Of a stretch of 36,689 bases of DNA, positions 12,262 to 35,464 are shown in pieces. The stretch is from positions 1,054,836 through 1,091,524 of the forward strand of contig NW_001865044.1 of assembly GCF_000002865.3 (NCBI RefSeq). Direction: 5' to 3'. The notes below the pieces were generated by a model that was given only the letters and a program-made list of their open reading frames with translations, made no database searches and was not told the origin of the DNA. This DNA is from Monosiga brevicollis MX1. Taxonomy: Eukaryota > Opisthokonta > Choanoflagellata > Craspedida > Salpingoecidae. Made by a program: the position numbers and the translations under genes. The stretch's first letter is position 1. Every line of letters starts with the position of its first letter.

Positions 12262-12311
12262 NNNNNNNNNNNNNNNNNNNNNNNNNNNNNNNNNNNNNNN
12301 NNNNNNNNNNN
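12262..12311. other. Assembly gap (50 N)
   Basis: Fifty undetermined bases. The round number suggests a placeholder, so the true missing length is unknown. No reading frame across it should be trusted. Confidence 0.99.
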
Positions 12312-12973: not shown

Positions 12974-14077
12974 ATGGCGGCAATGCGTCCGGTGATTGGC
13001 GTTGATTTGGATGAGGTGGGACATCGGCTGCTTTTCATTCGCCCGAGCAGTGATGCGCCGTCACCCGTCTGGTCCTGACCATCACTGTCGCTGCAGGTGC
13101 TTGGGTACTTTGTACAGGCGTTGGCCAGTTGGCATAACGAGGTGCACGGGACGTCTCTGTCGCAGGCCGACTTCCACAGCTATCGTTTCTCAGACGTTTG
13201 GGGCGGCTCAGACGCCGAGGCTACCCAGAAGGTGCACGACTTTTTTGAGTCACACTATTTTGCAGAGGTACACCCTTGTCGTAGCCGATGCTGGGCGGCG
13301 TGGGCAAGGGCAGCCACGTGCCGCTAGCAGCTTAACATCATGAAGTTGCTGGCCTCCTTGCTGGTTCTGTCTTCTTCTTTGAATCCTTCTTTGGTCTTGG
13401 CAGATTGCCCCTGTGCCAGGAGCGTTGGCAGCGCTGCAACAGCTGCGCAAAAGCTTTTCTCTGGTCGTCGTCACATCCCGACAACACGCCATCGAACAGG
13501 CAGGTGGCCTGGCCCGGCAAACTTGCATGGCACCACGCGCGCCCGGCCTTTTGCACTCGCTTCCTCAATTATCATTGGGCTACTGAACATGACAGGCTAC
13601 GCGCAACTGGATCGCCAAGCATTATCCTGACATCTTTGACGAAATCTACTTTGGCAATCACTGGGGCATCACCGGCGAGAAAATGTGCGTCTCCTCGAAA
13701 CAGAAACAAAACGCTAGAGGCCGTGCTCCAACTCACACGCCCCGTGTCTGGAATTTAGCTCCAAACCGGATCTCTGTCAAAAAATTGGTGCTCAGGTGCT
13801 GATTGATGATAGCCTCACTTATGCTGAGCAGTGTGCGCCTCAGCTCAAACACGTATGTGCACCATTTCAACCTTCACCTCTTGTTCTTGTGTGCGCCACG
13901 ACAATGGGGAGCGTGCGGTGACCGGTGTCATGTTCTCATTCGGTCCACGGGGCGCAGGTTGTGCTCTTTGGCGAGTATGCGTGGAACGCACGGCCAGAAG
14001 ATCAGCTGCCCAAAGGCGTGACCAGGGCTCTCAATTGGGCGCAGGCCTTGGATATTCTGACGTCGCTCAATCTGTGA
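12974..14077 (+). CDS. HAD-superfamily 5'-nucleotidase-like phosphatase
   Basis: Six exons: 12974-13015, 13097-13267, 13404-13499, 13596-13684, 13759-13852, 13958-14077. Phases close to give 203 residues. HAD motifs are in order. Motif I is VIGVDLDEV, with nucleophile D11 and acid D13. Motif II is SLVVVTSRQ, with the Thr/Ser. The lysine region is near ISKPDLC, and motif IV is VLIDDSLTYA with its acidic pair. The conserved stretches FHSYRFSDVWGG and WIAKHYPDIFDEIYFGNHW resemble small cytosolic HAD proteins related to 5'(3')-deoxyribonucleotidases. The likely reaction is removal of phosphate from a nucleotide or other small metabolite; the substrate cannot be told from sequence. No signal peptide is seen, so it is probably cytosolic. 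Intron 3 uses a GC donor: only that junction keeps the conserved AIEQ-ATRNWIAKHYP reading. Confidence 0.9.
13500..13595 (+). other. GC-AG intron in the HAD gene
   Basis: The exon ends ...ATCGAACAG and the intron begins GCAGGT and ends GACAG. A GT donor 4 nt later would change the phase and lead to an early stop. The GC donor keeps a fully conserved reading. The surrounding CAG|GC context is what known GC-AG introns use. Confidence 0.75.
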
Positions 14078-14343
14078 TTCCGCGCACGCATTTTGCCGAG
14101 ATCTGGTATACAGGTCAATTAAATAGAGGTGCAAGCCACGATCTGATTTTACAAACAATTATAACTGTGGCAAAGCACAGAAACAACTCAAAAGTTGGCA
14201 TTTACCCCCACAGGATCGACAGCGTGCCCCGCACGTGACAGCACAGAGACGGCAGAGGTCTCAAAGAGTCACACGCCGTCGAGTCCAGGGACAAGGCAGA
14301 CACTGAGACATTGTCTTCTTCAAGCCTTGCCAAGGAGATGACT
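14078..14343. other. Convergent intergenic region
   Basis: These 266 nt hold the 3' ends of the HAD gene and the Kir-like gene. A short AT-rich stretch near 14110-14165 may hold processing signals. I see no gene. Confidence 0.55.
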
Positions 14344-16590
14344 CTAGCGGTTGACGGGGTATTCCACGTCCACCGTGTCAAAAAACGCAAAATCGATTGT
14401 TTTGCGTTTGCGACGCAAGCCATCAGGCTGTGTCACCATGTTGTGGAACTTGGCGTTGACCAACATGCGTCCAACAATGTACGTGTGACTCTGGTAGACG
14501 GCTGTACCCGTCTCGGCATCAATGCCGGATATGACCACGGTGATCGTCACATCCTCACGAGCCAACTTGTCCCACGTAATGCCTGCCAACGGGCTATTCG
14601 GCGTGATGGCATGGGCCAGTGTCCAGAGGGGCGGCATCACAGCCATATTGGCGGTCAAAAGTTTCAGCTGATGGTAGCGGCGCAATGCCACTTCCGATTC
14701 CTTTGGCTCGCGTGATAGTGTCACTTGGGCATGGCCCTGCGGTGCAGCCACATCCCCGGAAACGGTTCAGCAAAAAAAAAAAAAAAAAGGGTTCAAGATG
14801 TGCAAGGAACATAAAACCAGTAGACTCATGTTGCGAAACGAAGTCAAAGGGGGACAGGAAGGACGGCATTGGGCACTGACCTGGATGATTTTGTGTTTGA
14901 AAGCATCGGTATAGCCCACTCGGATTTCAAGTGCAGGGCCATTCACAAACGAAGACATGCGGTCCACAACCAACCTAAACGCCCCCGTGCGCGCATCACG
15001 ATGAGATTGAAGTTGTGCGGGAAAGCGAAAGAAAGCACGAGCTGGGAATGGCGGTGATGGCTGGGGGCCCGTGTGCATGGGGGTGAGAGTCGGACAATAC
15101 CATGTTGAGAAGGAAAAAAACGTTGGCGAGCTTCTGAGGCGCGCCAGATAGCCAGCAAGGTAGGCCACGCGAAAGAAAAACCCGACAAAGTAACACGTCT
15201 AAGTACAACGCCGCAAGAGTGAGGGGCACGATGGACGCGCATTCTGCGTCAACTCTGCTTCATCAAACGCAGAGCATGGGGGCGCAAGCGCGGGTGGGTG
15301 GGCGGCTGCGAACAAAGAGGTGTGTGTACGAACCGTGACGAGCAGGTAGGTTGTGGTTGTCATTTTGAGGCGGACTGGAGCCAAGTCGTCTGATCCCGTC
15401 AGGAGGATGGAACCCAGGACCATGAAACACTCGAGGAAGCTGGCATCTTGGCCCGAATTGCCGCGACGATCAACATCCAGAATGACTAGGATGATGGCGA
15501 ACACAAAGGCGAGCGCCACAACCATCCCCAAAAGCTCCAGAACGGTGCGTGCAAGGGCTTTGATGGAGTAAAAAGTGCGGTGAGCGAGCAGGGGCACGTG
15601 TTTGAGTCGAGGCCGTTTGGCTGCCAGCCGCTCTTCATCAGTGGGCACGTCCTCGTTCTGCTCATCCAACGGCCCCCGGTGTTTGGTGAAGACGGGGTTG
15701 TGTTGATTGTACTGGACCGTATGACGGGTTCGCTTCTTGTTGCCGTTGGCAGCGTGAGTGTGGGGAATGCTAGAGTTTTTATTGCGAACAAATGCCTTGA
15801 GTCGGGACACCAGGCCGCCGGCACCGCCCTCGCGATGTTCCTTATCTGATTCACGGTCAGTGGGCTTGTCTTTTCGCGTTTCCTTCTCGTTATCTGAGGG
15901 ACGCTCCTTGGGGTCTGAGGTGCGGCGGCGGCGGCGGAAGAACGATCCGATACTGGCTTGTGAAATGGAGTCGTAGTCGGGCTTGGCTTTGCGGACGGCC
16001 TCGGGGTCGGAGAGCAGAATCGGGCGGTCCTGCTCTGGATCAGAGGAGAGCGAGGCGTTGTCTGCAGCGTGCGGCAGGCCAGTGGGTCGAGCTAGGGGTG
16101 AGGGTGGGCTGGAGTGGGTGGCGGGCGCAGCATGGGAGTCGGAGATGGCGAGGCTGCGTCCCCCCACGGCTGAATCCACACTTTCAATGTCAATGAGTGG
16201 AGGGTGTGCACCCGCGATTCGAGACACGTCCGGGGATGTGATTGTCGGCGCCGGCGCGTTGGTTGGGGTCGAGGCATACTGCTGGTGGTGGGAGCGAAAG
16301 GGGTTGTGCGAGGGCGGCTCATGACGCCGGCGGGCCGCAAAATCTCGCAACTTCTCTTCTTTGGAGCGGCGCGGTCGTCCAAACGACTGCGGGGTTGCCG
16401 ATGCTTGAGGCATACCCGTTCGCTCGTTACTGTTTGCACGCGAGCGTGTGCGAGCCCCGTTGGACAGCTGCATGGCGGTGGTGGTGTGTGTGCTGCTGCC
16501 CGTGTTCTGCCGAGACTGGGCACGTGAGCTCACGGGCGTCTCCAGTGACGGGTGCGAGGCGCGGGTGGGTCGCTGACGCCACCGAAACAT
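14344..16590 (-). CDS. Inward-rectifier (Kir/KirBac)-like channel with atypical filter
   Basis: Four minus-strand exons: 16590-15334, 15198-15101, 14974-14881, 14736-14344. Phases close to 613 residues. Residues 1-345 are a long Ser/Arg/Pro-rich cytoplasmic N-terminus. TM1 is about 350-373 (LGMVVALAFVFAIILVILDV). The pore helix is near 384-396, and TM2 about 414-440 (YLLVTTCYFVGFFFRVAYLA). Residues about 455-613 form a clear Kir cytoplasmic domain: FVNGPALEIRVGY, HAQVTLSRE, PLWTLAHAITPNSPLAGITW, VTITVVISGIDAETGTAVYQ and TIDFAFFDTVDVEYP. Kir channels are tetramers, usually K+-selective and PIP2-gated. Here the filter position reads LLTGSDDLAP (residues ~396-405), where KirBac has TIGYGxLTP, so GYG is replaced by GSD. 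Either selectivity differs, the subunit is non-conducting, or it is regulatory. The exon is continuous across this point, so splicing does not explain it. Confidence 0.85.
15382..15399 (-). other. Non-canonical selectivity filter T-G-S-D-D-L
   Basis: On the minus strand these six codons read ACG GGA TCA GAC GAC TTG. They sit between the pore helix and the inner helix, exactly where Kir channels carry the T-x-G-Y/F-G signature. The downstream Leu-Ala-Pro matches the LTP that follows the filter in KirBac proteins, which anchors the alignment. Confidence 0.8.
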
Positions 16591-17152
16591 GGTCCAAAGT
16601 AAGATGGAAGCACCTGGAAGTCACAGCTCACACGGCCCGTGTCGAGAGGTGGCGTGCAACGGCAGTGGCAATTCGATCCGCGCCGTATGCTCGCCCACCT
16701 GAGTAGGTTCTGGGCCTCGAGCCCAAGTTTGCGATCACAACAGCAGCGCACTCAACCGACCAAGTCGCCACACGCTCTCGGTGTCTGCCTGTGGGGGATG
16801 ACTGACCACGCGCTAAGCGCCCGCTCGCTTGAGGTTGAGGCGAACACGAACACGAACACGAACGGCTGCCGTTTGTCTTCAATCATGAGCCCTTCATCGA
16901 GCCACACCCGCAACGACGATTTATCACACCTGCACACCGCGTTTAAATGGGTTGGCTTATACCGATACCACACCATGAATTTGCTGTTTCCACACTGGCC
17001 TCAGATTTTGTTTCGTTTGCAAGAAACGCCTGACGTCTTCACTGGCTTCGCTATATTGTCAGCAAATGCGTAAGGTTTTGTCAGCAGATTTAAAGTATGA
17101 TCACTGTATTCGCATCTACCAAGCCCAGATGGCCAATGCGGTCAACACGTGG

Positions 17153-17207
<55 letters not shown>

Positions 17208-17461
17208 CGTCTGCAGTTTCTGTCGAGTGGTCGCAGGGGTTGCTGCTGACGCCGCGGAAGAGGTGCGCGAATGCGATGGATGGGAAGCGTGCCTCTTGCG
17301 ATGGGGTGTGCCGTTGTGCCATCATGTTGGAAACAGCTTGTGGGGGGAAGGCTTGCATGGCTGTGGCCTGAGATATGGCAGCGTGGCTGCTGGTCAAACG
17401 CTCATTCATCCTGGGCGCGCTTGGAAGCGTAGGATCAGTCCCAGCCCATCATCGTCTCATC
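16591..17461. promoter_or_regulatory. Divergent promoter region of the Kir-like gene and NOP2
   Basis: These 871 nt separate two divergent ATGs. They contain a short (AACACG)-type run near 16842-16862 and a GA microsatellite at 17156-17205, about 255 nt upstream of NOP2. I see no convincing gene; reading frames here are short and lack conserved sequence. Confidence 0.5.
17156..17205. repeat. (GA)25 microsatellite
   Basis: A perfect GA run of about 50 bp in the region between the Kir-like gene and NOP2. Confidence 0.95.
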
Positions 17462-20400
17462 ATGGGTCGCAAGAAATACGACAAGAGCACACCCATGCGT
17501 GGCAAGGGCCGCAAGGCCAAGAAGCAGGGTCCCCCGGAGCCCCTGGCTGGTGCACCTGGTACGCGAAACGCGCTGCTTCTCCCGGGTCTTCGTCCTCATC
17601 ATCCCCACTCATGCTCTGAACTTTGTGCGCTTCCTCTCAGTTGGCAAGGATGCCAAGGGCGCCAATCGCAAGTGCGTTGTGTGCTCATTGTCTCTTTTTG
17701 ATGGCTTGCTGTTTCGCATTCGCCGCTCACCTGTTCCACTTGCAAATTGGGCCCCGTTTCCAGGAAGGGAGGCCGCTCCAATGAAATTGCTGCTTGTACG
17801 CGCCTTGCTTGGCTTGTGCATGGGCATGTGCATGCCTTTGACTCATCTTCACCTCCTCTGCTGGGTTGGATGGGTCTTTTGCTTTCATAGTTCATGAGGG
17901 TGGTTCAACAGGCCTCTTCTCGCGGTCCTCCCTGGCTCCCAAGCGTTCCAAAAAGGCTGCCATCCCCCCGCCTGCCGAGGTGGAGCCCGAAGAGGAGGAG
18001 ACCGTTGGTGATTTCGATGACTTTGACGCTAGTTTTAGCCAGCTCGATGCCCAGCCCCCCGTAGCCGACGCTCCTTCCGAGGATGAGGAGGGCGAGGATG
18101 AGGAGGTCGATGACATGGAGGAGGACGAGGAAGACGAGGTTGATGGTGAGGACGATGCTCCCGTTAAGACGGGCACCCTCGACGACCTGGACGACGACGA
18201 GGGTGACTTTTTCGCACAAGACGACTTTAACGGTGCGTCGCCGGCTACCACTCGCTAATCCCTGTTGTAATCCCGCCATACGCTTCATTGTCTTCACTGC
18301 CTTTTCCTCTGCAACCTTTGCTGCTCATAGGTGAGGAAGAGGATGGCGACGATAATGAAGAGGGTGACGACCTTTTTGATGATAGCGATGAGGACGCCGA
18401 GCCGGCGACCGGTAAGCATCCGTTCTTTTCAACTTGCCCCCGTTGCGCGCCTCGGTGCTTTGTTCTGCAACCGTCTGACAGTGCTGCCCCACTCTTTTCC
18501 CAGGTTTCTCGGATAGCAACAGCAAATGGCTCAAGCCTTCCAAGAAGGCCAAGGCTGCCAAGCAGGCAATGGATGATCTCTTTGATGAGGAAGACATTGA
18601 GGATGACGAAGATGACGATGACGAAGAAGATGAAGATGAATTGGCAGTTGAGCGCGCTGCGCGTGAGCTCGAGGCGGCCGAGGAAGAGGATGCGTGCGTG
18701 GCACTCGCAGCTGGTCGAACGTACCCCTGCATCCCTCTGTCTCTGCTGTGGTCTCATTCTGTTTTCTTCTGGCACCCATCATTCTTGGCTTCAGGCGTCT
18801 GGCCGAAGAGGAATTGCAGACGAACATTGCTGAGAGCAAGCGATTTGTGCTGCCCAGTGGCCAGGAGATCGAGGCGGGTGGTCGTGTGTCAGAGGATTTG
18901 AGCGTGATTCAAATGCGCATTCGTGATAATCTCAACACGCTCCGCAACTTCAAGGTGGGTCGGCTCACTCGAGCATGGTTGTTCTTCACCCGGCAGCAGC
19001 ATGGGAACATGAATCGAGGCGTTGGCTGCCATCACCGTGAACCAAGCTTTTTCAAGCTTGATCTTGCTCATTTGATACCTGGCCCGTTGCGCCATGGCTT
19101 GATGCTAGGAGTTGCGCGAGGAGGGTCGCTCGCGTACCGAGTACCTGCAGGTCCTCCAAGCCGATCTCTGCTTTTATTACGGTTACAACGACTGCATGAT
19201 GGAGCGCTTCATGCAACTGTTTGGTTTGGACGAGGTATGCCTGGCACAATGGCCCGGCTCAAGTGTCGTCCTGCGTCCTTTTGTCCTTTTGCCCCCCCCT
19301 TCTTTGTTTTCCTCACCGCCACGGTTGTTTGTTTCCACCCCTTGCGTTTGTTGCCACTCTTGTAGCTGATCGAGGCTCTCGAGGCCAACGAAGTGGAGCG
19401 ACCCGTGACCATTCGTACCAACACCCTAAAGACGCGCCGCCGTGATCTGGCTCAGGCGCTGATTAACCGCGGCGTGAGCCTGGATCCCGTGGGCAAGTGG
19501 TCCAAGGTACGCCCCCCCGATCGTTCTGCGTTGCTTGCCGTCGATGGAATGCCGTCCGATCAGTTGGCCAACCAACTCAACGGGATGGGTCCTTTCTCAC
19601 ATTCGTCTAGGTTGGCCTCGTTATTTTTGAGTCCTCAGTGCCCATTGGAGCCACCCCCGAGTATCTGGCTGGACACTATCTGGTTCAGAGTGCGTCGTCT
19701 TTCCTGCCCGTAATGGCTTTGAGCCCACTCCCCAACGAGAAGGTTCTGGACATGGCTGCTGCCCCCGGTAAGAATCTTGCATGCACGCAATCGTAGTTTG
19801 CGGCAAGCAACGGTTGCTTCTTCCTGGTTGCTGGCTTTCTAAGCTAATCTATTGCGGCTTGATGACTCGGCCTTGCAAAGGTGGCAAGACGACACACATG
19901 GCCGCCATGATGAAGAACACGGGCATGGTTGTGGTCAACGACTTTAACAAGGTGGGCAAGCCATTTTTAAAAAAATTTGGCCAATGCAAAAGACCGTAGG
20001 CATTTGAATCTGATTGACCTTGTCCTCATGAGCGACTGCTAATCCTGATATTCGGCCCTTTAGGCTCGTACCAAGTCCCTCTTTGGCAACATTCACCGTC
20101 TTGGTTGCACCAACACGGTCATTTGCAACTATGATGGCCGCGAGTTTCCCAAGGTGAGTGGCGCAGCGGTTTTTGCGCCGGATTCATGACGAGCCGAGCT
20201 TGTCTCATTTACACTGATCTTCTTTCTCCTTAGGTGCTGGGTGGCTTTGACCGCGTGCTCCTGGACGCGCCTTGCTCAGGCTCTGGCGTCATTGCCAAGG
20301 ATCCTGGAGCCAAGAACAACAAGAGCGAGGATGATTTCATGCGCTGTTCCACTCTCCAGAAAGAGCTCATTCTCTCAGCCATTGACTCTGTGGATGCCAA

Positions 20401-21376
20401 CTCGAAGACTGGTGGTTTCATTGTCTACTCCACTTGCAGCATCATGGTAAGCCCATCTCCTTGCTTTTTCGTGACTCGGGAAAGCAAATTGCCTTTTGCG
20501 TTTCCTGCTTTGGTCACTGCTTGCTCAGGAGGCCCGCCCACTCACCCAATGCTCGTCGTGATGTTGTGGTCATTGTCGCTTCGCTGTGAAGGTTGACGAG
20601 AACGAGAGCGTAGTGGACTACGCATTACGCAAGCGCAACGTCAAGCTTGTGGACACTGGCCTTGATTTCGGTCGTCCTGGCTTTACAAACTTCCGTGGCA
20701 AGCGCTTCCATCCGGTATGTGCTGGCTTGTTGGTCGCGCGCCCACCCTCAGGTTCACCAGTTCCATATCCTTCCGTGAGTTCAAATGACTCAATGACCCG
20801 GCTGACTTTTGTAGACGTTGGAAAAGACTCGTCGCTACTATCCTCACGCACACAACATGGATGGTTTCTACGTGGCCAAGCTGCAAAAACTGAGCAACGA
20901 GGTATGTGCTTGCCTGTGTCTGGCTCAGAAGCAGCCTCGACTTGTGGCATTCTTACGCAATGGTCCTTCCTCCTCTTGCTTTTATGATTCAGATTCCCAA
21001 GCGCCAGCCCGATGAGGAGGATGAAGCACCAAAATCCAATGGACAAGCGACAGCCGCCAAGGGCTCAGCAGCCCAGAATGGTGCCGCCGCAGCCAACGCG
21101 GCCAAGGCCAAGCGCAAGCTGCCCAAGCCTGGCAAGGCCCGTGCTGCCCCAGCGGGCTCACTACCATCCGCTCCCGAGGCTGACGCCGACCAGAAGACAA
21201 AGCGCAAGGTGAAGCGCCTGCAAGATACGACTGTAGAGGTTGAAGGGCTCGAGGCAAAATCACATCGCCAACAACGCCAGGAGCGCAAGCATGAGCGGCG
21301 GCAGGCAAAGCGCGGCGCTGCTGCGGCTGGTGGATCAAACAAGGCTGCTAAGCAACGCAAGGCAGGCTCGGCATGA
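17462..21376 (+). CDS. NOP2: Nucleolar 25S/28S rRNA cytosine-5 methyltransferase NOP2
   Basis: NOP2/NSUN1 methylates a cytosine in large-subunit rRNA and is needed for 60S assembly in the nucleolus. Sixteen exons: 17462-17558, 17641-17671, 17764-17795, 17912-18232, 18331-18411, 18504-18693, 18795-18954, 19109-19234, 19366-19506, 19611-19767, 19881-19951, 20064-20153, 20234-20446, 20592-20714, 20815-20901, 20993-21376. All phases close at 767 residues. The N-terminus [18 protein letters not shown] is basic. Residues ~75-260 are strongly acidic (D/E runs), as in other NOP2 proteins. The NOP2/Sun core has [14 protein letters not shown], the SAM loop [35 protein letters not shown] with Cys ~513, and YSTCS with catalytic Cys ~567. 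[11 protein letters not shown] marks the end of the core. A basic Ala/Lys-rich tail follows, typical of nucleolar retention. Exons 2 and 3 are only 31 and 32 nt. Confidence 0.97.
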
Positions 21377-26197: not shown

Positions 26198-28527
26198 ATG
26201 AAGCCTGCGTGTTCTCGCCATCACCATCATCAAATCCAGCAGCAGCAGCAAGAGCAACAACAGCACCAGCTTCAACACCACCGACAGCCACCACGGCCGA
26301 GACGACGTCCACCAGCCGTACCGACCCCGCTTTCTTGTGCGGCTGCTTCTGCCGTTGTTGTGCCTCGGCCATCCTCGTCGCCCCCCGTTCAAGCCGCGCA
26401 ACACTGTTCGACACCCAGTAGCGCGTTTCATTTGTCTGCTTGCGTTCCCGCCGACGCGTCGGCGGGTCTGCTGACCGTCGTCACCGTTCGTTGTGGGGTG
26501 CTGGTTGGCCCCGCGTTGGCACTTCTTTTGACGACTGGGTCTCTTGCCACCGGTCCCGACCTGTGCTGCCCACTGTGGTGGTCGCTGCTAAGCTTGCTTC
26601 CCTCCGCTCTGGACCCCTTGCCCTCAGCGCTGCGTGAAGCGTGCAGACCCGCTGTGATTGTTCCAGCGCGCGGCGCCCCGCTTGGTTTGGCCACCAGGCG
26701 CTCCTCCTCGGCCGTGGCATCTGCCATCGACAGCGAAAACCTTAAGCTCGTCACCATTGGCACCTCCTCCACGAGTGGGGTCACTAGCCGTTGCTGCTCG
26801 CCGCCAGACCGGCCGGCTCTAGCGTCGCCGCGCAGCCCTTCCCGTGTGGTCGTCATGGCCCATAGTGAGGTACGTCACACGCCTCACACCCCAACCCCAG
26901 CTCCTCTTGGCCCTGTTTTCCTTCCCTGCCCTAGCCCTTTCCTCTTGAGGATAACCAGGTGAAGTGTTTTAGCTCATGCGGGTCCCGTGTCGCGTTCCCG
27001 CTCGGCGCAGGATACGGCGCAGAATACAGCCAGCAACCAAACAGAAGCCATGGACACCTCTTGTGACAACAACAAGCAATTTATCAACGAAGACGATACC
27101 ACTGGCAACAACACCCATGTAGCCGAGGGGATTGTTGACATTCAAAACGAGCTCCTGGAGTGCGTCGAAGCCAACATTGCCGACATTACTGTGGACATTC
27201 GTCATCAGTTGGGCCATGGCGCCTTTTCTACCGTCTTTCCTGGTTTGTTCACACCCGCTGTGCAACCCACAGCCAGCCGCCAGATCCCATCATGCTCGTT
27301 TTGATCCCAGCATGCTCTTAGCTTGAGTCCCTGCATTGGCGCACGTTCATGTCATTTCAGCCGCTAGACCCCCCTTCCCATACCCACCCCGCCCTCCTTT
27401 TTTTTTTTTTTTTTTCTTCTCCCAACAATCCTTCAGGCTTGCAAGGGACGAGCCGTCGGTCTGTGGCGGTCAAGTGCGTTCTTTTGCGCGACGAGACCAA
27501 GTCGGCCTACAAAAACGAGCTGCGCATCCACCAGCTAGCCCTTGGTCATCCCGGTATTGTGGAATTTTTCGATTACTTTGTGTCTCAGGTTTGTGCGCTC
27601 AATCTGCCTTGCGCCAGTGCCCCCCTTTGCTGCGCATCGGCCACGCGCACCCACACCAGGCGCGCACACACACACCAGGGCGGCCACCTTCCTCATGCAC
27701 GACCGTCTGAATTAGGATATTGCCTATTTGGTCTTTGAGCTGTGTAGTCGGGGCGAGGTGTTCAATCTGATTGAACCGCGAGCCGGCATTCGCCGCGACC
27801 TGTTGGGGCCCATCTATGCACAGCTGATTGATGCCGTGACCTATCTACACACCAAGGGCATTGCCCACCTGGACATCAAGCCAGAGAACATGCTGCTCAA
27901 TCATGACGGCCGCCTCAAACTCTGTGACTTTGGTCTCTCTGTTTTGAGTGAGGACGGGCCTCTGTATTCCTGCCGCGGCTCGACCGGCTACGCAGCGCCG
28001 GAAAATCTCAAATGCCACTACGCGGCCGTCGCCAAGCGTGCCGTTCAAGGTTACGATCCACTCAAGGCAGACGTCTGGTCCTGTGGAGTGGTGCTCTTTG
28101 TGCTTTTTTACGGCTACACCCCGTGGGATATTGCTCGCGAGGCGACGCCCGAGTACCGTCTCTACAAGCACACCGAGGGCTACCCCAACAGCAAACCCTG
28201 GACCAAGATGGCTTCAGTCTTCCGCAACCTCTTTCACCGGTACTGCATGGCCTCTCTGCTCGTCACCCGTCACCGTGCCCGCCGCAATGCGTTGGGCTGC
28301 ATCTGTCCGCCCAAGTGTCTCCGCTCATCTTTCCTTGCTTGCTGATTTTGGTTTGCAGCATGCTTTGCATTGCGCCAGGCAAGCGTTGGACCATCCAGGT
28401 TGTCAAGGCACAGATTGCCCGTGACTTGGGCTGGCGACCACCACAGACGTTCCCGATCCCGATCGATGCCCCCATGGGCCTCCCTGTCAAGGCTTCTGCC
28501 GGCATGGACAAGCCCGTATCTTCGTAG
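26198..28527 (+). CDS. Ser/Thr protein kinase, CHK1/CAMK-like, with HLD instead of HRD
   Basis: Exons: first exon ending at 26869, then 27011-27242, 27437-27588, 27716-28239, 28359-28527. The start is uncertain. ATG 26855 gives 363 residues. ATG 26198, in the same open frame, adds 219 residues beginning His/Gln-rich (HHHHQIQQQQQEQQQ). Using the short numbering, the kinase has a glycine loop LGHGAFSTVF, a VAVK lysine, an ELRIHQL helix, catalytic AHLDIKPENMLL (184-195), DFG at 203 and GYAAPE. ADVWSCGVVLFVLFYGYTPW and a Trp-Thr-Lys-Met segment before IAPGKRWTI resemble CHK1 more than other CAMK kinases. The Arg of HRD is Leu; the catalytic Asp, Lys, DFG and metal-binding Asn are kept, so activity is likely. 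The Leu suggests looser dependence on activation-loop phosphorylation (inference). No C-terminal CHK1 regulatory domain is present. Role unknown. Confidence 0.88.
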
Positions 28528-31661: not shown

Positions 31662-34600
31662 ATGTCCAGCATGTTCCAAAGCCTGCGCATGATGGGCAAG
31701 TCGCTGTCCAGTGCTGCCGAGGCCGGTGATGTTGATGCAGTGCAGTCCCTTTTGTCCAGCAGTACGTCCGAAATGGCTCATCCCACAAACCCGGGGATAG
31801 CAGACTCGGGCGCGCTCTCATCCTGCCCACTCGCGAACGCACCCGATTCGATCACGGGCACATAGGTTTCAAGGGTCCAGGCAAGCGCGCTCAGAGCATC
31901 AATGACAAGGTGTCTACCTGCTCATCCCTGAAAGGCTCTCCATTGTGTATTGTACCGGTAAAAGGAGCGGCGCCTCACACACGCCCCCATTGATCGCTTG
32001 GCAGGATGAGGACGGCTGCACGCCTCTGCACAAGGCTGCTCTTAACGTGAGAATTCATCTTGACTGATTGACTCTACTTGGGACTTGCCCCTTGCTACTC
32101 GACCTCTGTGGCCCTCCTCACCAGTCGCACTTCCTTCAGGGACATTTGGCCGTCGTGGAGTTGCTGCTCACGGCCAATGCCGATGTGAATGCTAGTGTGT
32201 CCAATTTCGCCGCTAACGGATACCCATGCGTTGAAGCGGCTGCGATTTCGTCTCATCCACCTTTGTTGGTTTGCCTGGCTCGCATCTACTCGTGGCGTAG
32301 CTGATAAAAATGGCATGACCCCTCTGCACATGGCTGCCTTCAACAACCAACATGACGTCAGTGCGCGCAGACACGTTGATGATACCAGGCCGCATTAACA
32401 CGGCTGCGCTCACTGTACTTTGTGGCTTAGGTCGCTCGACTTTTATTGGATGGAGGTGCTGATGTTTCAGTCACATCCACTCGCGCCGGTCTGTCTCTGC
32501 CACCCTTGAAGCTGGCGTGCCTGTTCCGAATTGGCTTTGTGTGCTGTGGCATGGCTGCCCCGTGTTGCACCCATTCTTAACTCTCATCTTTGACACAGGC
32601 GAGACGCCACTACACATCAGTGCCAACGTGGGCCACGTGGAGGTGATGCAAACCCTCATCAATTATGGTGCAGATCCGCTGGAGGAGACCAAGGATGGAA
32701 CTTCCCCGCTGGAACTTGCTGCCGGGGTACGTGGCCAGCTGGCTACCATCGTGTTGGTAAATGTGCGTGGCTTTGCCCTTCTGACCCAAGGAAAACTTGT
32801 TTGTGTCACACAGGCTGGACATCTGGACATGACCCGCTTTCTACTTTCGCTCCGCGACCTTGGCTATGAAATCCTACCCCCTCCCTGTACGTCTCCTGCC
32901 CTCCTCCTCGGCCACCGATGCGTGGTCTGGAAACTAGCAAGAAAGTCTCACAAAAAGGGGCTTATATGCACACGCTTCTCTCTCATGCTGCGTGTCATTG
33001 TCAGTGAAAGAGACGGAGATTCAAAACACACGTCATCTCAGCGCGTTGCACCGCGCTGCGGGCAATGGTCACGCTCGTGTTCTCATCCTTCTCCTTGAGG
33101 TAAAGCTTGCGCTCCATGTCAGGAAGAAACGGCGCTTCGAGCTTGGCCCTTCTAGATCTGCCGGCTCATTCGCCATTTGGGGCAACTTGCTTGGGTAGGC
33201 TGGCTTTGACATTGACTACCCCTCCGGCTCGGGCACGGCTCTAAGCGTGGCCGCTATGAAGAGGTTTGTTGACACGTGTTGTGCTGTCGGGGCTCGGGAG
33301 TGTCGAGAGGCCTTTGAGGCCTTGAGGAACCGTCTAGACCAGGTTTGGGCATACTGATGCCCATTCGTCACACAGGAAAATGGACTGCGTCAAAGCCTTG
33401 TTGCTGCGTGGTGCTGATACCAACCTTCCCGAGGTCTGGCATGTGAAACGTGGCTGTTGCACCACGTACATCCTGGGGTCGTGGGTCTCTATGGACTTTC
33501 TCATCTTGCGTCCCGAAATTGGCGTCTTTTGGTAGGGTTCAGCGCAGCACGAGCGATTGGTTGAGCTCTTGGAAGACCTCGACAACGCGTCATCGTTGGA
33601 ACTGTGCAATCTGCTGGACACAGATCGCCGGCCCTCTGAACTAGGGGCCATTATCCACATGGCCGCGGGTCTCTCAGGCTCTTTGGATGGTGGCAATGCC
33701 GATGCGATCGCGTCTGATGGCCAAGCTGCACCTCGAATGTCTTCGCTTCGCGCTCTTCGCAACAAGATTGGAATGCGCAGTGCACGTAGCAACAGTGACA
33801 CAGGTTCAGGCCCTGCGATGGCTGCCGACACCATGACAGATGCTGCCAGCACCGAATCCAACCCAGTGGTCGAGGCAGAAGCGCCGCCCATTCCGTCACC
33901 CTATCAACCTGAGCCGAATGAGGAACCCAAGCCTGCTGACCCAGAGCTCGAGGACCCCGAGGCCAAGCCTGAAGCCGAGACCATTGAGCCCGAGACCATC
34001 AAGTCCGAGCCCGAGGCCATCGAGCTTGAGACCGTCAACCGCGAAGCGAGCAAGGCTGAGGCGGGTGGCGATCTCGAGGCAGCCGGCGAACCGTCGACGT
34101 CATCCACCACAGCCCGTGTCGAAACCTCTGATGATACAAGCATCGAAGATACCAGCCCCGACACCGCTGCCAGTGCCAAAGAGGCCACCGACGCCAAAGC
34201 CAGCGCAGCCATGACTGCGCAGCCAGATGATGAATCGCCACCTCCTGTGCGCGCATCGATTTCGATTCCGCCACCGCCACCTTCGACGGCACCTGCGGCT
34301 GATGCCGAGCAAAGCGAGCGCGCGGACGACGCTGAGACTTCGAGTGAAGGTAGCGGGACGGCCGGAACTCCGCTGGCCGAAGACACTCGGCATGCTGACG
34401 TATCGATTCTCAGGGACGCCGAGCCACAGGCGGGGGCATCATCGGCCTCGCGCATGCGCCTCTTCTCGCGTGGTGCCAGTGCCCCGGCCCCCGCAGTCCC
34501 ACGACCTGTGACCCATAAGGACTTGCTGAAAGAGGGCCCGCTATGGAAGAAGCCGCAAATCCGTACCGGCAAGATCAATGTGAACAATAAGGCACGGTTG

Positions 34601-35464
34601 CGCTGGTTTGTGCTCCAGGAAACCACGCTGAGCTACTACGACTACTCGCCAGAGTCGACCAAAAAGCGGATTGGCAAGATCAAAGGATGCATCCCCCTCA
34701 ACACGGTGTTGCAGGTGCAGGCCTCGCATGGCGAGGGTGACGAGGCTACGCGGTGTTTTGAAGTCATTCAAGAAGATGCGGCCCTTTTCTGTGTGGCGGG
34801 TAACATGGCAGAGCGAGATGCCTGGGTAACAGCAATTTGCCGCGCCTGGGCTGCAGCTGAAACGCTGATCAAGCCACAAAATCGGCTGCCAATGCCCGAA
34901 TCCACAGAGGGCGAGGCACAGCCTCCGCCCCTGCCGGTGCCATACGCAGATCAAGCGACCGAGAACCAAGCCACACGCGAGCGTGGCTTTACTGCCTCGG
35001 TCAAGAACCGAGCCAGCCTGTAAGCAATGGCCTGTCGTGTGGTGCTGTATCTTTGCATTGGGTACTTTGGTGTTGGGCCTTGGTGCCCACGTTTAAGAGG
35101 CACTCGATTGTTTCCTGCTTGCATTTGTGTGGCGTGCCCTCACGGTTGTTGGCCTCGTGTGTACAGGAAGGCATCCGCGTCTCAGTTGGCACGCCAGCAA
35201 GAGTTGGAGCGTGAGGAATTGGGCATGGTCGACATGTCAAGTCAGTCGTTGTCGTGGATCGCGTCCGTAAGCTTTGCGACAGCGGCAGAGCTCTGGCTGC
35301 GTATTCTCATCGCGCTGCTGTGTGTAGAGCTGTGGACTTCGAGCGAAAACAGCGGCGTCACATCCGAGCGCGACACAGACGCTGCTAGACCCGAAGAAGC
35401 GAGTGCCGCCGAGAAGCCACTCGACCAGTCTGATAACACCTCGAGCGGAGAGCATGTGGAGTAG
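31662..35464 (+). CDS. Ankyrin-repeat and PH-domain protein
   Basis: Fourteen exons: 31662-31761, 31866-31909, 32005-32046, 32140-32194, 32301-32356, 32431-32488, 32599-32726, 32814-32886, 33005-33099, 33199-33263, 33376-33433, 33536-35019, 35167-35240, 35328-35464. Phases close at 822 residues; the exon 12 acceptor may be slightly later. Residues ~1-270 hold about seven to eight ankyrin repeats (DEDGCTPLHKAALN, DKNGMTPLHMAAFN, GETPLHISANVGHVEVMQTL, LSALHRAAGNGHARVLILL). A disordered Pro/Glu/Thr/Ala-rich linker of some 300 residues follows. A PH domain spans ~LKEGPLWKK to WVTAICRAWAA, ending in the typical conserved Trp helix. The tail is charged. Ankyrin repeats bind proteins and PH domains bind phosphoinositides, so this is a probable membrane-recruited scaffold. 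No ArfGAP or other enzyme domain is seen, and I do not recognise an orthologue. Confidence 0.88.
35020..35166 (+). other. Last-but-one intron of the ANK-PH gene; donor overlaps a stop codon
   Basis: The donor GTAAGC lies in ...AGC CTG TAA GC. If spliced, the frame continues for about 70 residues. If retained, the protein ends at once with ...RASL. The two outcomes differ only in the C-terminal tail. Which is used cannot be told from DNA alone. Confidence 0.6.

Follow-up and report, generated by a model that had tools for sequence, protein, structure and literature searches.

A candidate KirBac-type channel protein of the choanoflagellate Monosiga brevicollis with an acidic sequence at the position of the potassium filter

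We describe a predicted gene of Monosiga brevicollis MX1, here called kirX, that encodes a Kir-derived protein with a conserved cytoplasmic domain and a pore loop of unusual sequence. Kir proteins are the textbook example of K+ channels, and their fold is regarded as tolerating almost no change in the filter. Because its potassium filter is replaced by a short acidic sequence, kirX is probably no potassium channel; a few bacterial channels are known to have lost the filter in a similar way. The explanation we prefer, at slightly less than even chances and by analogy with the bacterial NirBac proteins, is that kirX, independently of them, has lost K+ selectivity and is a NirBac-like cation channel of a eukaryote.

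The gene lies within a stretch of 36,689 nucleotides of contig NW_001865044.1 (the window), to which all positions refer (Table 1). Its predicted product has 613 residues, encoded by 613 codons without a stop. The open frame of exon 1 (473 aa, with a GT donor at its end) includes a low-complexity N-terminus of about 335 residues, and the Kir-like sequence in this frame ends with ...KMTTTTYLLVT at 15334. Elsewhere in the window are exons of an RsmB/F-type RNA methyltransferase (19366-20596, plus strand; Pfam 2.8e-24), plus-strand exons with protein kinase, ankyrin and PH domains (27716-28342, 32463-33095 and 33536-35020), and an assembly gap of 50 N (12262-12311) adjoining dinucleotide repeats.

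Table 1. Predicted features of kirX, in window positions
Feature	Position	Strand	Content	Basis
kirX gene	16590 to 14344	minus	four exons	
Exon 1	15334..16590	-	ATG at 16590; N-terminus, slide helix/TM1, pore loop, first part of TM2	
Pore loop	15376..15441	-	SFLECFMVLGSILLTGSDDLAP; filter position T-GSDD; TGSDDL = 15399-15382	translation
Intron 1	15199..15333	-	GT-AG, 135 bases	splice scoring
Exon 2	15101..15198	-	98 bases; remainder of TM2, TCYFVGFFFRVAYLAGYLARLRSSP...	splice scoring, alignment
Intron 2	14975..15100	-	GT-AG, 126 bases	splice scoring
Exon 3	14881..14974	-	cytoplasmic domain start, LVVDRMSSFVNGPALEIRVGYTDAFKHKIIQ	KirBac profile alignment, codon bias
Intron 3	14737..14880	-	GT-AG, 144 bases	
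Exon 4	14344..14736	-	Kir cytoplasmic domain up to TAG stop codon	

Splice choices were scored with a profile of 47 KirBac proteins, with the 3′ end of exon 3 and exon 4 held fixed. Among 576 combinations 108 were open, and the top one (88.9 bits) contains the middle exon listed as exon 2. Including this exon, and with it the rest of TM2, raises the score by 10 bits over the best combination that lacks a middle exon (78.8 bits); some less plausible middle exons reached 84-85 bits. The original prediction had placed TM2 within 15334..15500, which proved too narrow, as the rest of this helix sits on exon 2. A donor for exon 2 at 15122 was dropped in favour of 15101 (82.1 versus 88.9 bits); the protein used in the solved-structure comparison, the spliced-protein Pfam search and the genome_contigs and viral scans carries the 15122 donor and is seven residues short near the end of TM2.

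Codon bias was computed as log-odds from 2,266 training codons, about half of them supplied by a single frame of the window that is 1,112 codons long and has no Pfam match. By this measure the model frame is the sole positive frame of six in the N-terminal part of exon 1, in exon 3 and in exon 4, and every frame is negative in the three introns. In the TM1-pore part the model frame scores highest (0.167), with one frame of the reverse strand positive as well (0.126); within the 87-base segment 15420-15334 these two are level (model frame 0.065, reverse frame 0.071). Codon use in exon 2 is neutral (-0.04, with another frame at -0.022), which makes this exon the least certain piece of the model.

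The pore loop of kirX reads SFLECFMVLGSILLT-GSDDLAP. The predicted filter reading, L-T-G-S-D-D-L-A-P, is borne out by the open frame on the minus strand at 15402-15376 (CTG ACG GGA TCA GAC GAC TTG GCT CCA), and LTGSDD is, as had been proposed, not a K+ filter. TxG[YF]G is absent from kirX. Likewise, a search at the sequence level for an alternative exon carrying GYG found the motif [TSV]xG[YFL]G in none of the minus-strand frames of 13000-17500; a single plus-strand match in this interval, at 15973, is in an unrelated frame. At least three edits are needed to turn the filter DNA into a TxG[YF]G code. Of 2,000 shuffles, 1,206 likewise required three, 664 got there with fewer and 130 took four. 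The filter DNA is thus no closer to such a code than shuffles are and is no near miss of a filter. A sequencing error or shifted frame that hides a GYG is supported neither by this distance nor by the minus-strand frames of 13000-17500.

The two halves of the loop differ in how Kir-like they are under a loop profile. For the pore-helix start, SFLECF, only 5 of 20,000 shuffles scored as well; taken over the first 12 columns of the loop the figure is 373 of 20,000, and the filter half is at chance level (7,740 of 20,000). The loop also has one residue fewer than Kir loops do, and the filter is therefore rewritten rather than substituted. While kirX retains SFLECF, two NirBac1-type loops that we scored were matched by 286 and 1,881 of 5,000 shuffles.

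It had also been predicted that TM1, pore helix, TM2 and a Kir cytoplasmic domain are all recognisable in frame. This held for the cytoplasmic domain (see below), but the transmembrane parts are weak by sequence. No Pfam channel model matched TM1, the pore or TM2; the sole listing, DUF1676 (E = 0.12), fell short of its cut-off. A KirBac transmembrane profile gave kirX 5.1 bits, and 99 of 2,000 shuffles that kept the pattern scored as well, as did 38 of 2,000 full shuffles. AlphaFold was run on exon 4 and on the TM1-pore piece; for the latter it returned helices at residues 6-42 and 55-68 with a mean pLDDT of 70.1, falling to a poor 51 at residues 71-80. kirX keeps the slide-helix Tyr, which does not vary across 35 aligned rows, but lacks the slide-helix Asp and the TM1 Trp and Asn that KirBacs conserve. 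The part of TM2 on exon 2 has the inner-helix Ala and Gly of KirBacs, which are invariant in 13 aligned sequences. Exon 2 also encodes an arginine in TM2 (FFFRVA), and this inner-helix arginine could hinder cations.

That kirX is Kir-derived was supported by the Pfam model IRK_C, which matched the exon-4 frame at 1.1e-9 (38.7 bits, cut-off 22.5) and the spliced protein at 3.7e-10. The AlphaFold model of exon 4 has a mean pLDDT of 88.9, and its best fold matches are to KirBac3.1. Among solved structures, KirBac3.1 was also the top sequence match (1.3e-8), and animal Kir proteins, including GIRK2 and Kir2.1, which share the fold, reached 4.9e-4 at best. The suggested comparison with both groups thus assigns the kirX domain to the bacterial KirBac type rather than the animal type, and in sequence kirX is akin to KirBac rather than to animal Kir. 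KirBac3.1 and KirBac1.1 are its nearest solved structures by sequence and fold; unlike them, kirX lacks TxGYG, has a loop one residue shorter and carries an arginine in TM2.

A tree of 56 cytoplasmic domains separated an animal group, which includes the M. brevicollis gene C48 described below, from the KirBacs and kirX (100/99). The kirX branch is very long, at 2.81 changes per column, and its place in the tree is not resolved. Five NirBac1-type rows formed a clade (100/100) with kirX outside it, which argues against descent of kirX from the NirBac1 lineage; the likeness between kirX and NirBac would therefore be convergent at most. A search for viral relatives yielded 289 stretches in viral_contigs that fit a pattern, of which 0 were confirmed.

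The long branch might instead reflect a decaying gene, or an error at the pore in the gene model or the assembly, and two further observations are compatible with this: the neutral codon bias of exon 2, and the 87 filter bases, in which a reverse frame scores as high as the model frame. Against it are the 613 stop-free codons, the GT-AG introns, the codon bias of exons 1, 3 and 4, and filter DNA three edits away from any TxG[YF]G code. We consider this explanation unlikely. Simple decay in particular is unlikely because the cytoplasmic domain is intact and the codon bias favours the model frame in exons 1, 3 and 4; the pLDDT and the KirBac3.1 fold match agree with the earlier view that this domain is conserved.

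We surveyed bacterial relatives for comparable filter loss. A scan of genome_contigs used two peptide patterns, one of which is the pore-helix start, and is hence biased to conserved loops; it gave 49 loci (one truncated, one frame-shifted), and 46 of the 47 with a readable pore have [TS]xGYG. The remaining one, L058, is a Caulobacteraceae KirBac with GLGYG where TxGYG would be expected. Searches with the cytoplasmic domain, which are without pore-loop bias, found matches in 54 of 195 genomes of the phylum of Anaeromyxobacter oryzae, 6 of 387 of the phylum of a Verrucomicrobiota MAG and 16 of 398 of the phylum of a Magnetospirillum MAG; all matches from the latter two phyla were taken, and those from the first minus two short partial ones. 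Pooling the scans and keeping one row for each distinct set of last 100 residues gave 134 rows, of which 120 had [TSG]xG[YF]G. The other 14 comprise kirX, eight non-GYG genes (nine rows, one shared fragment being separate) and partial or split rows.

The eight non-GYG bacterial genes (L084, L089, L090, L096, L069, L100, L102 and L103) are all of the Anaeromyxobacter NirBac type and come from eight of the nine genomes of the A. oryzae genus. The same genus also holds one TIGYG gene (L073), and another genome titled Anaeromyxobacter retains TIGYG (L029). All eight have a full TM2 with an arginine (FVRW), whereas K, R or H occurs in the 18-column TM2 core of 0 of 121 GYG rows; a separate aligned count gave 0 of 108. 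A crude parse had flagged basic TM2 residues in 3 of 74 sequences, but these stretches lie just after the filter. The kirX arginine is three or four positions further along than that of FVRW. Filter loss together with a TM2 arginine would amount to two events at most, because the eight genes form one lineage. The parallel is, on these alignments, loose, with one bacterial lineage and the least certain exon behind it. Somewhat doubtful is the fuller proposal that a eukaryote independently converted a KirBac-type K+ channel by a new acidic filter (T-GSDD) plus an inner-helix arginine, as in the Anaeromyxobacter NirBacs. On that proposal, Kir-fold proteins that lose the filter may regularly carry such an arginine, and kirX would be, to our knowledge, the first eukaryotic Nir channel, possibly permeable to Na+ or Ca2+.

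Prokaryotic NirBac1.1, 1.2 and 2.1 (Zubcevic 2015, PMC4607889) resemble kirX in joining a Kir cytoplasmic domain to a rewritten K+ filter. NirBac1.1 and NirBac1.2 form tetramers that pass monovalent cations with little choice despite lacking TxGYG, and NirBac1.2 does not pass Ca2+ (PMC4607889). The filter most similar to LTGSD of kirX is TTGTD of NirBac2.1 from Gemmatimonas (YP_002762692), whose expression was problematic and whose function was not pursued (PMC4607889). Unlike these proteins, kirX is eukaryotic and has introns and a long N-terminus. It has the defining combination of a NirBac, namely a Kir body whose pore loop lacks TxGYG.

One protist Kir-family protein, TbIRK of Trypanosoma brucei, lacks the signature filter and is K+-selective nonetheless: it has GGYVG and keeps a pK/pNa of about 7 (PMC5429665). 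Odd filters such as GYSD/E are reported for other protists (PMC3283738). kirX might similarly be K+-selective through an unconventional filter. However, TbIRK has three glycines, of which G132 matters for selectivity (PMC5429665), and kirX has a single glycine, two aspartates, a loop a residue short and no such glycine-rich motif, so that we regard a TbIRK-like K+ channel as very improbable. Literature searches on choanoflagellate and M. brevicollis Kir channels and on odd Kir filters listed no paper whose title or abstract opening describes kirX.

M. brevicollis is reported to have at least nine K+ channel subunits (PMC3283738), and we found two other Kir genes in its genome, both with a TIGYG filter. 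C48 (L014, G000:C48:643000-651000) is an animal-type Kir of several exons (GIRK2, 1.4e-39; KirBac1.1, 9.7e-18). In C56 (L015, G000:C56:274000-281500) the pore leans towards animal Kir (Kir2.1, 2.4e-11), the last exon resembles KirBac (34.4 bits) and an open frame of about 340 residues precedes TM1. A further match to Pfam IRK, on C33 (E = 0.539), has two internal stops and looks like no gene. Searching the genome with exon 4 returned one match, kirX itself, and a diverged paralogue could have been missed, because the genome IRK_C search also missed the C-terminal exon of C56.

These genes bear on the next most likely explanation, a possible one that we rate below a cation channel: kirX might be a silent or regulatory subunit that joins C48 or C56 TIGYG tetramers and alters their trafficking, conductance or gating. 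The loss of the filter and the TM2 arginine alongside a retained cytoplasmic domain would fit such a role, as would the two canonical partners and the KirBac-like last exon of C56. Nevertheless, co-assembly is doubtful, because BLASTP of kirX against the C48 and C56 pieces gave nothing significant (best E = 2.0) and C48 is of animal type, and NirBac1.1 and 1.2 conduct despite their rewritten loops (PMC4607889).

For the preferred explanation, a NirBac-like cation channel, the intact KirBac-like domain, the pore-helix start, the slide-helix Tyr, the TM2 Ala and Gly, the codon bias, the stop-free frame, the precedent of NirBac1.1 and 1.2 and the TM2 arginine speak in favour. Against it stand the lost slide-helix Asp and TM1 Trp and Asn, the poor TM1-pore model, the filter-region codon bias that ties with a reverse frame, the two TIGYG paralogues that make a silent partner possible, the hindrance to cations that the inner-helix arginine could pose, the position of kirX outside the NirBac1-type clade, the closest filter belonging to a protein (NirBac2.1) whose function was not pursued, and the K+ selectivity of TbIRK despite its lack of TxGYG. 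kirX would be a protist subunit of the bacterial (KirBac) type, with the Kir fold and two transmembrane segments. Such subunits would assemble into a tetrameric cation channel gated by the cytoplasmic domain. The K+ backbone-carbonyl filter would have been lost by deletion of one residue and a change from G-Y-G to G-S-D-D, whose aspartates would form a ring at the outer mouth. Judged by NirBac1.1 and 1.2, in which the Kir body is kept, the loops are rewritten and there is little cation choice, kirX probably passes both Na+ and K+. Acidic rings in a filter favour Na+ or Ca2+.

If kirX conducts, replacement of the filter on a Kir body occurred in bacteria and separately in a eukaryote that is a close unicellular relative of animals, and the conserved body with its new loop would be a natural chimera for probing selectivity. 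Should kirX prove silent, a Kir subunit dedicated to regulation would exist outside animals.
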